64,000 bases of DNA, taken from assembly GCA_035765895.1 (NCBI GenBank), contig DASTWL010000033.1:1-64000 (forward strand), read 5' to 3'. The stretch comes from Verrucomicrobiia bacterium. GTDB taxonomy: Bacteria > Verrucomicrobiota > Verrucomicrobiia > Limisphaerales > DSYF01. The translations under genes and the position numbers were made by a program. Below are positions 42,270 through 45,250 of this stretch, one piece after another. The notes beneath the pieces were generated by a model. That model made no database searches and was not told where the DNA came from. It saw only the letters and a program-made list of their open reading frames with translations. Within the stretch, counting starts at the first letter, position 1. Every line of letters starts with the position of its first letter.

Positions 42270-42414
42270 GCCGCAGAATTTCGGCGAAGCGGCGGCGAAG
42301 CAAGCGGAAAGGTATGAAAACAAACGGCCCGCAACCGGCAATGCCCAACGTCGATCCGGTGCATTGGCGACCGGCCGAACTGGGCCTTCGGCATGGCCGA
42401 TTGAGCGTTGAATG

Positions 42415-42449: not shown

Positions 42450-43145
42450 ATGCTACTCGCGACGCTCACGTTTCCGGTCCTGGCCGCGGCGCCGGGAACG
42501 GCGCCCGACAGCCAGCTGATGCTCCGCACCCTGCTCGGCAACGGCGGCCCGATGATGTGGTTGCTGCTCGTGCTGAGCGGAGTTGCCATCGCGGTGTTCA
42601 TCGAGCGCGTGCTTTACTGCCACCGTTCCCAGATCAACTCCACCGAGTTTCTCAACGGCGTCCGCACCGTGCTGAAGCGGGACAACGTCGTGGAGGCCCT
42701 GTCCATCTGCGACGCCACCCCCGGTCCGGTGGCCCGGCTGGTGCGCACCGCCATCGTCAATCGTGACAAGGGCAAGGACGGTGTCCGCGAGGCACTGGAG
42801 GACGCGGGCCTCGTCGAAGTGCCGCGGCTGGAGGCGAAACTAAACCTGCTGGCGACGGTGGCCCAGATCGCGCCGCTGCTGGGATTGCTCGGCACCGTGC
42901 TGGGCTTCATCACGGTGTTTTACCAGTTGCAGGACGCCGGGCTGGGCGCACAAATCGGGCAGCTTTCCGGGGGCATCTGGCGCGCCCTCATCAGCGCCGG
43001 CGCCGGCATCGCGGTCGCCATCCCGACGCATGTCGGCTACAACTACCTCGTCAGCCGGGTGAACACAATCGTCCTGGACATGGAACGTTCCGCCACGGAA
43101 ATCGTGAACATTCTGGCGGAGCTGAACAGCAGCAAGACGTCATGA
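42450..43145 (+). CDS. ExbB/TolQ/MotA-type proton channel protein
   Basis: A 231-residue inner-membrane protein with three helices: about 33-53 (PMMWLLLVLSGVAIAVF), 135-157 (IAPLLGLLGTVLGFITVFY) and 178-198 (ALISAGAGIAVAIPTHVGYN). The central GLLGTVLG motif is that of ExbB. In TM3 the channel-lining Thr of E. coli ExbB/TolQ (ALLATAIG) is replaced by Ala, although a Ser sits one position earlier. It overlaps the exbD-like gene by four bases (ATGA). It should energise the TonB-like partner, but see the finding on lost proton-path residues. Confidence 0.88.
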   Translation: MLLATLTFPVLAAAPGTAPDSQLMLRTLLGNGGPMMWLLLVLSGVAIAVFIERVLYCHRSQINSTEFLNGVRTVLKRDNVVEALSICDATPGPVARLVRTAIVNRDKGKDGVREALEDAGLVEVPRLEAKLNLLATVAQIAPLLGLLGTVLGFITVFYQLQDAGLGAQIGQLSGGIWRALISAGAGIAVAIPTHVGYNYLVSRVNTIVLDMERSATEIVNILAELNSSKTS

Positions 43146-43585
43146 AATTTCCACGCAACGCCCGCATCGCCAAGGGCTCGCTGGAAGCCGCACCGTGGGC
43201 GGCCGTCATGTTCCTGCTGGTCACCTTCCTGTTACTGGGCAACCTGCTCTACACCCCGGGCGTCCACATTGAACTGCCCGTGGCCAGCCTGCCGGCGGAC
43301 GACGCCCTGCCCGGCACGGACAAGCCGACGCTCAGCGTGGCCATGGACGCCAGCGGCCGGTTGTTCTACGAGAACCAGCTGATGGAAGAAACCCAACTGC
43401 TGGCGCGGTTGAGCGAAACCGTAAAGGCCGCCCCCGAGAAACCAACGCTGATCGTCCGCGCAGACCGGGCCGTCAGTTACGAAAACTTGATCCGTCTGAC
43501 GCTGCTGGCGCGGCAGGCCGGCATTGAAAACGCGGTCCTGGCGACGCTTCCCCGGCCGTTCGACAAAACGCCGGCCCGCCCGTGA
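43142..43585 (+). CDS. ExbD/TolR-like protein lacking the membrane Asp
   Basis: A 147-residue protein with one N-terminal membrane helix (about 17-37) and a periplasmic ExbD/TolR domain (THETA strands, then TLIVRADRAVSYENLIRLTLLARQAGIENAVLAT in consecutive elements). Aligned with E. coli ExbD, PFIDVM becomes PWAAVM, so the universally required proton-carrying Asp is Ala (bases 43189-43203 read P-W-A-A-V). The flanking residues and the downstream VHIELP motif still align. It overlaps both neighbours by four bases (ATGA, GTGA), so stoichiometric translation is likely. Confidence 0.87.
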   Translation: MKFPRNARIAKGSLEAAPWAAVMFLLVTFLLLGNLLYTPGVHIELPVASLPADDALPGTDKPTLSVAMDASGRLFYENQLMEETQLLARLSETVKAAPEKPTLIVRADRAVSYENLIRLTLLARQAGIENAVLATLPRPFDKTPARP

Positions 43586-44379
43586 ACGCCGTGCTGCCAG
43601 ATTCCTCCGCCTGGACAAGGCGCCAGTGGATTGGGGCCGTTGTGCTCGCCGTGCTTGTGCAGGCGGGATTGATTCTGTGGTTCAGCGAACACACGCCACG
43701 CCCGGTGCATCGGTTGAACGCACGGCCCGTCGTGCGCATGGCGCCACGGGTCAAAAATGAGTGGCTGACGCTCACGGACCCGACGCTGTTCGCGGTGCCG
43801 CACCCGGAAGGATTCTCGGGTCCGGCCTGGCTCACTGTTCCGCCGCATCAATACCGCCCCCCCGGTTCGCTGGACGAACCCTTGTGGCTGGCGCCAACTC
43901 CGGTCGCGTTCGGCGCCGCCTTTCATGAATTCGTGCGGACAAGTCCGCTCGCCCCGTTCCATTTTACCGTCCGCCCGCTGGCCGCTCCAACCGATCTTGG
44001 CAATGTGCCCAACCCACCGCTGCGCACGGGCTCCGAGTGGGAGGTCACGGGCGACCTGGCCCGCCGCGGTCTCGAGTTCATTCCGCCGCTGCCGTCCTGG
44101 ACGAACGCCGAAATCCTGGCGCCGAGCGTCGTGCAGGTATTGATTGACGCCCGCGGCAATCCCATTTCCGCCGTGCTGCTGGACCCCAAGGGCAGCGGCC
44201 TGAAGGCAGCCGACCAACGCGCGGTGGATCTGGCCCGCGCCGCTCATTTTGGCCCGGACCAGGCGGCGTTGACCGAACATCCGAACGATCCGGCGGCCGG
44301 ACTTGGCTCGGGCCGGCTGATTTTTCACTGGAACACCCTGCCCGCGCCGGTCACCAACGACAGCGTCAACCCGCGTTAA
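43582..44379 (+). CDS. TonB-like periplasm-spanning protein
   Basis: A 265-residue protein with one N-terminal membrane helix (about 15-33, WIGAVVLAVLVQAGLILWF) and a C-terminal TonB-like domain (about 180-235; VVQVLIDARGNPISAVLLD followed by DQRAVDLARAAHF). The usual long Pro/Lys-rich spacer is missing; the spacer is Pro/Phe/Trp-containing but not repetitive. The membrane helix has no His; its only polar residue is Gln. The gene starts with GTG inside the exbD stop (GTGA). It is probably the energised arm of the complex. Confidence 0.75.
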   Translation: MNAVLPDSSAWTRRQWIGAVVLAVLVQAGLILWFSEHTPRPVHRLNARPVVRMAPRVKNEWLTLTDPTLFAVPHPEGFSGPAWLTVPPHQYRPPGSLDEPLWLAPTPVAFGAAFHEFVRTSPLAPFHFTVRPLAAPTDLGNVPNPPLRTGSEWEVTGDLARRGLEFIPPLPSWTNAEILAPSVVQVLIDARGNPISAVLLDPKGSGLKAADQRAVDLARAAHFGPDQAALTEHPNDPAAGLGSGRLIFHWNTLPAPVTNDSVNPR

Positions 44380-44381
44380 TC

Positions 44382-44606
44382 ATGCCCATTCATACGCTGA
44401 TTCTGGGATTCGTGGTGATCTCGCTGGGAGCCTTGGGGCTGCTGGTGATTTGGACTGAACTGCGCCGGCGCCGCTTCGAGCCGCACCCCAGCCAGGATCG
44501 CATTTTCCGCTGCCAGAAATGCGGCTCGGTTTACACGGACGACCCCGACGTGGACCGCTCGCGCTGCCCGCAATGCGGCAAGCTGAACGAGGCCATCCAA
44601 TTTTAG
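44382..44606 (+). CDS. Membrane-anchored zinc-ribbon protein
   Basis: A 74-residue protein with an N-terminal helix (about 4-25, LILGFVVISLGALGLLVIW) and a cytosolic zinc ribbon made of two CxxC pairs (CQKCGS and CPQCGK, 19 residues apart). It starts two bases after the TonB-like gene and is thus the fourth gene of the operon. No named family is recognised; it could be a structural or regulatory subunit of the Ton-like complex. The 168-base gap after it holds no gene. Confidence 0.7.
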   Translation: MPIHTLILGFVVISLGALGLLVIWTELRRRRFEPHPSQDRIFRCQKCGSVYTDDPDVDRSRCPQCGKLNEAIQF

Positions 44607-44774: not shown

Positions 44775-45250
44775 ATGCCAACGCCGTTTCATGATCTCAA
44801 AATCGCCGGGCTCGATGAGGAGCGTTGTTACCGGCTAGGCACAGGCGAGGTCCGGTCTATCTGCAACTGTCAGAGAAACCGCCCGTGGGCTGGTCGAATC
44901 TGTTCATCCGCGCGTGGCAATCCATGATCCACGTGCCGGAACGCCGGGTGGGCATGGAAGATGGCGCGATCTGGATCGAGTGCACGCCGGCCGAATTGAA
45001 ATCCCACCACCTGGCGGAGCTCGAATCCGCCTTGGCTCAGGCGAACCAGCAATTCTGGTCGGCTGTGGAGCGGCGGCTCAACGCGGAACGTGCGCAGCGG
45101 GAGGCCGCCCGACAGATGGAAGCGGAACTGGCCTCGCTGGCCGAACATTGGAATCCTCCGTCACAACCCGTCCACGAGGAAGCACCACCGCGCGCCGGCC
45201 CAAGGTTCCCGGGCCACCGCTTTTGGCGGATGATTTGGCGCGCGTTTTAG
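44775..45250 (+). pseudogene. Frameshifted gene of unknown function
   Basis: The ATG at 44775 opens a frame reading MPTPFHDLKIAGLDEERCYR and LGTGE, which loses coding character near 44849. The sequence continues convincingly one base out of frame as GPVYLQLSEKPPVGWSNLF to a stop at 45250. Restoring one G in the run at 44849-44850 (reading GAG GGT CCG) would join both parts into one protein of about 158 residues, with a helical, Glu/Ala-rich second half. It is either a genuine single-base deletion or a sequencing error. No family is recognised. Confidence 0.65.

Follow-up and report, generated by a model that had tools for sequence, protein, structure and literature searches.

Introduction

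Machines of the Ton and Tol types are regarded as proton-driven motors made of three parts, with the ExbB pore threonine pair (Thr148 and Thr181) and the TonB transmembrane histidine, located within the SHLS motif, among the residues considered below. The transmembrane aspartate of ExbD (Asp25 in E. coli) has been reported to be essential in the Ton motor, according to the available sections of two papers (PMC7014051, PMC12905483). In the PVC bacteria, clusters of a TPR gene, tolQ, two tolR genes and a vWA transducer were described in the accessible text of a 2025 force-transducer study (PMC12204202), the main text of which contains no mention of zinc. The protein LapB/YciM combines an N-terminal membrane helix with a cytosolic four-Cys rubredoxin domain, as stated in the available part of PMC13333357. 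A description of a fourth gene was not found in the open-access literature, including the accessible portions of PMC12204202, PMC13274419 and PMC12505986, which does not establish its absence from print, and the main text of a paper on the essential genes of Verrucomicrobium spinosum (PMC12283558) mentions none of ExbB, TolQ, TonB, tol-pal, zinc and exbD. Here, such a fourth gene, znr, is described from a stretch of 64,000 nucleotides (the window) of a Verrucomicrobiia bacterium.

The gene cluster of the window

Four + strand genes are located at positions 42450-44606 of the window: an exbB/tolQ-like gene (42450..43145; PF01618, E 2.1e-29; alternative start TTG at 42408), an exbD/tolR-like gene (43142..43585; PF02472, E 6.5e-17), a TonB-like gene (43582..44379; GTG start, TAA stop) and znr (44382-44606). 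The genes exbB and exbD overlap by 4 nt, as do exbD and the TonB-like gene, and the TAA of the latter is followed by the letters TC and the ATG of znr, which gives the 2-nt gap that the earlier note had read at this place. The ExbB and ExbD family domains, both over cut-off, are found in adjacent genes, and the TonB-like protein contains one transmembrane helix and a TonB/TolA-type C-terminal domain, which was recognised by profile (E 2e-9 against TonB chains) and by fold (best Foldseek match to the TonB C-terminal domain, probability 0.99, E 0.014), with the TIGR01352 score of 18.9 bits being below the cut-off. By these family and fold matches, the host complex is built like a Ton/Tol motor. 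The label "Ton-like" given in the earlier note fits only in part, as the window ExbB scores better as TolQ (84 bits with the TolQ model versus 45 bits with the ExbB model; best PDB matches of its profile being TolQ at 6e-22 and ExbB at 2.7e-15), and the ExbD of this cluster is devoid of the proton residue in the order. One match to the Plug domain of TonB-dependent receptors was found in the genome of the window, and 51 of the 57 class genomes have one.

Downstream, guaB is convergent to znr, and an ORF of 141 aa lies between the two genes at 44825-45250 of the window; none of the family models matches it over the cut-off, and the other loci compared lack a counterpart.

The ZnR protein

The gene znr (+ strand, ATG start) encodes a protein of 74 aa, ZnR, in which one membrane helix is followed by a basic, arginine run and then by a CxxC-x14-CxxC ribbon, with the CxxC pairs at residues 44-47 and 62-65 and 14 residues between them; the single-helix protein with two CxxC pairs that had been noticed earlier is thus confirmed in its ORF, its helix and its Cys pairs. 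The ribbon core (residues 42-65, window positions 44505..44576, + strand) reads FRCQKCGSVYTDDPDVDRSRCPQC. In the AlphaFold2 model (mean pLDDT 84.6), the helix comprises residues 3-32, with a pLDDT of 94-99 over residues 1-30 and of 70-86 across residues 41-70, where the ribbon block is located. The number of Lys and Arg residues after the helix exceeds that before it in all 48 aligned family members, and the ribbon of this single-pass protein is therefore predicted to be in the cytosol, with the N-terminus out.

Two CxxC knuckles with conserved spacing, as in zinc ribbon and rubredoxin-like domains, are present in ZnR. Membership of a known curated family was rejected, since none of the Pfam and NCBIfam models gave a score over the cut-off, and Foldseek returned short zinc-ribbon/rubredoxin-type domains at E of at least 0.2, with weak matches to rubrerythrin, nigerythrin and LapB (E 0.2-1).

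Conservation and linkage

The gene znr is present in 274 of the 293 genomes of the window's order and in 152 of the 154 good-quality ones; in two of the genomes with no match, G060 and G094, each with a completeness of at least 90%, exbB is situated close to the end of its contig. With a narrow ZnR profile, 119 of 236 genomes of the class sample were positive, and with a broad one at E<=0.01, 211 of 240 genomes of the phylum sample, where weaker matches can be unrelated ribbons. As presence counts, these are lower bounds, for the genome search missed znr in G517, G382 and G401, which have it. The invariant residues of the order alignment (48/48) include F42, R43, C44, C47, Y51, T52, D53, D54, D56, S60, R61, C62 and C65, and phylum-wide, an alignment of 48 diverse members has no invariant residues (48/48) other than the four Cys, while G66 and N69 occur in at least 90% of them.

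In the znr-anchored loci, drawn from hit lists rather than at random and with one duplicate pair (L024 and L056 are the same place), exbD and/or the TonB-like gene is directly upstream in 138 of 157, across several classes: 29/30 and 27/27 in the window's order, 25/40 in other orders of the class, 20/20 in further class loci and 37/40 in other classes. In the class sample, 87 of the 119 genomes with znr have a listed TonB-like match, and the two genes adjoin on one strand in 83 of the 87; three of the four exceptions (G394, G335 and G301) rest on weaker znr matches. The earlier note had named, as refuting its reading, an occurrence of the gene mostly away from exbBD or a frame that is not conserved, and neither applies. 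When exbB was taken as the anchor, znr was found behind the TonB-like gene in 20 of 21 loci, the remaining one stopping at a contig edge.

The gap between the TonB-like gene and znr has a median of -4 nt, is <=20 nt in 118 of 138 pairs and equals -4 or -1 nt in 79 of 138; these 138 pairs, which include exbB-anchored loci, are a different set from the 138 linked loci. The trio upstream is constant, while the downstream neighbour of znr varies (guaB convergent, guaB-guaA-hisD, guaA, or hisD-hisC). On a tree of ExbB (138 cluster rows), which was inferred quickly under the LG model and has several long branches, the state of znr (linked, unlinked or absent) changes only 5 times; the tree omits L222, L223, L225, L228 and L243-L247, where the state is cut by a contig end or unread, as well as the short loci L007-L034 and L056-L082 of the order. 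The gene znr is a true conserved fourth member behind the exbB-exbD-tonB-like genes, far beyond the order.

A comparison with the copy of the same genus gave dN/dS values of 0.144 for znr, 0.128 for exbB, 0.30 for exbD and 0.40 for the TonB-like gene, at identities of 82%, 83%, 60% and 44%, respectively; the values are rough, as they come from one genome pair with dS of 0.8-1.35. The constraint on znr is about as strong as that on exbB. The likeness of the two values weakly favours, from this one pair, a cytosolic contact on the ExbB side over a periplasmic one.

Unlinked znr and trios without it

Among 15 unlinked loci of other orders, a guaA-like gene follows znr in 13, most of which have rplQ-like or prs-like genes upstream of znr; the order in L115 is rplQ-znr-mraY-like and that in L096 is different again (all names by eye). 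The Opitutales-like genomes searched still hold exbB, and those read have exbD and mostly a TonB-like gene; a loss of the trio in these genomes was considered and dropped, as a set of TPR-like gene, exbB, exbD and tonB-like gene is present elsewhere in them. In ten f72 genomes, exbB and znr are 34-39 kb apart on the same strand, and in several of the loci read (genomes of L196-L206) znr stands behind ribosomal protein genes. The order of exbB and znr is reversed in G362, at 11 kb, and the two are >1 Mb apart in G395 and G441. In L213, exbB-exbD is followed by a uppS-like gene, with no TonB-like gene. In the f116 genomes, znr precedes an rsmD-like gene (by eye), apart from the trio; in one of these, G644 (L193), exbB is accompanied by an exbD that retains the Asp and by a TonB-like gene, with another exbB match about 5 kb further on.

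The locus L137, tentatively Methylacidiphilum-like, has the row exbB-exbD-tonB-znr-guaB-guaA-hisD, from which we infer an ancient arrangement that was afterwards broken at different points. Such a string would explain the differing znr neighbours of other lineages.

Twenty regions in which the genome search had given no ZnR or a weak match were re-read: in 3 the sequence stops too soon, another 3 do contain ZnR, and the remaining 14 have exbB-exbD without a znr-type four-Cys ORF behind. The 14 fall on the ExbB tree into a group of 13 and a single one (2 changes), and in L256 and L260, which are without znr, a hisD-like gene lies <=10 nt behind the third gene. Since znr stands apart from the trio in the Opitutales-like genomes and the trio of one clade goes without it, ZnR is an accessory and not a core part. 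The claim of the earlier note that znr is the fourth member of the operon therefore stands as to its conservation behind the trio beyond the order, but has to be restricted by its separability (Opitutales-like, f116) and by its absence in the 14 of 20 re-read regions.

Proton-site residues

The column of the essential ExbD Asp contains Ala in the window (APWAAVMF), and in the order Asp occurs there in none of 65 loci that could be read, the residues being A 24, G 19, S 9, C 5, V 3, M 3 and I 2, with identical rows counted once and rows gapped at this column excluded; Asp or Glu anywhere in the scanned part of the helix was found in only 1 of the 65. The ExbD paralogs have Asp in 12 of 12, and elsewhere in the genome of the window, three further exbB loci have ExbD neighbours that keep it. 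By the same counting, Asp is present in 7/42 loci of other orders of the class, 6/17 Opitutales-like, 20/37 of other classes, 3/11 with exbBD and no ZnR, 1/3 of f116 and 2/9 of the mixed rest. On the ExbB tree, the state of the Asp changes 20 times, and the tree cannot tell gain from loss. The idea that ZnR replaces the lost proton site is not supported, because Asp is mostly missing also where there is no ZnR and is often present where znr is linked, as in the other classes.

In the window ExbB, the first pore Thr is kept (GLLGTVLG) and that of TM3 is Ala; 22 of 62 loci of the order retain the TM3 Thr, as do 12 of 12 paralogs. The transmembrane His of the TonB-like protein is Gln in the window, and in the order (n=76) the position is H in 36, Q in 39 and E in 1. 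Because the ExbD Asp, the TM3 Thr of the window ExbB and the His of the window TonB-like protein are all replaced, the exbBD-TonB-like complex is, as judged from these residues, probably not a canonical proton-driven Ton motor. The losses would presumably stop proton use, though another residue could serve.

Interpretation and rival explanations

The explanation preferred here, to which we give about an even chance, is that ZnR is an accessory subunit of a Verrucomicrobiota envelope complex of ExbB-ExbD-TonB type, regulating or stabilising it with a ribbon on the cytosolic side; it is based on the trio being the sole kept neighbour of znr, on the genes overlapping or nearly so, and on a constraint matching that of ExbB. 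We infer that the translation of znr would be coupled to that of the TonB-like gene. ZnR would span the inner membrane with an outward-facing N-terminus, present a putative metal-binding ribbon at the cytosolic face and, as a member of the complex, most likely dock on the ring of ExbB at its cytosolic part; it may stabilise or regulate the complex, perhaps by responding to metal or to redox state. The complex of the window's order would probably act as a trans-envelope scaffold, either passive or energised in some other way, rather than as a canonical proton motor, because the ExbD Asp is gone in all readable loci of the order and the TM3 Thr of the window ExbB is Ala.

Against a subunit are counted the persistence of znr apart from the trio (f72, G395, G441 and f116) and its absence at the 14 re-read exbB-exbD regions. 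The retention of znr when unlinked is the best evidence for the main rival, in which znr encodes an independent membrane-bound housekeeping ribbon protein, tied for instance to translation or to the gua and his genes, and has inherited its place from the ancestral string exbB-exbD-tonB-znr-guaB-guaA-hisD. The setting of znr in the Opitutales-like loci, with rplQ or prs on one side, guaA on the other and exbBD elsewhere, the znr-guaB-guaA-hisD run in L137 and the place before the rsmD-like gene in f116 are in accord with such a protein, but the downstream neighbour of znr keeps changing while the tonB-like gene does not, the stop-start overlaps between tonB and znr are tight, and the convergent guaB of the window means that there is no operon shared with the gua genes; on balance, this explanation is considered possible but rather unlikely. 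Still less probable is a metal- or redox-sensing regulator of another membrane client, comparable to LapB acting on LpxC/FtsH and merely co-expressed with the trio: the layout of ZnR corresponds to a pared-down version of the LapB N-terminal helix and rubredoxin (PMC13333357, available part), and the weak structural matches of ZnR include rubrerythrin, nigerythrin and LapB itself, but ZnR has no TPR part and no sequence family match over cut-off, and the Foldseek E values are 0.2-1. A chance ORF or an artefact of gene calling has next to no probability and is ruled out by the presence in 274 of 293 genomes, the invariant Cys and the dN/dS of 0.144.

The accessory subunit may be extended to a phylum-wide four-gene complex in which the proton site was repeatedly given up and which serves to tether or to relay signals, the ZnR ribbon being its inner input or output; this is put forward as a doubtful proposal, slightly below the housekeeping protein in probability. 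A tightly linked fourth gene with a putative metal ribbon is kept across much of Verrucomicrobiota, and the motor-defining proton residue has changed repeatedly and is absent from one large order as a whole. Should the complex be real, either the ExbBD-TonB design is used here other than as a motor, or it is energised in a different manner.

Comparison with known systems

With LapB/YciM, ZnR has in common the N-terminal membrane helix and the four-Cys putative metal domain, predicted cytosolic in ZnR (available part of PMC13333357); it differs in being without the TPR part, and a relation in sequence between the two is not established. The PVC clusters of TPR, tolQ, two tolR and vWA genes resemble the present one in a TPR gene followed by TolQ/TolR-like genes, whereas the cluster described here has one ExbD, a TonB/TolA-type C-terminal domain instead of vWA, and znr in addition (accessible text of PMC12204202). 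In 33 of the 40 other-class loci (L152-L191), the gene before exbB encodes about 830 aa and is TPR-like as judged by eye.

The TolQ-TolR-TolA system shares with the cluster the order Q-R-A, and the best scores of the ExbB-like and ExbD-like proteins are those as TolQ and TolR. In contrast to Tol-Pal, no tolB-pal was recognised beside the exbBD-tonB-znr genes, and the window's genome gave no match to TolB_N (PF04052), for which the E. coli control was positive and 10 of the 57 class genomes had a match; without TolB in the genome, a classical Tol-Pal assignment was rejected. The likeness to ExbB-ExbD-TonB includes the gene order, the MotA_ExbB and ExbD families and the fold of the TonB-type C-terminal domain. 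It differs from that system in the extra ribbon gene, the ExbD of the order without Asp (65/65 readable), the change of the TM3 Thr to Ala in the window ExbB and that of the transmembrane His to Gln in TonB, and because its ExbD is without Asp, the host complex is not filed as a canonical Ton/Tol motor.
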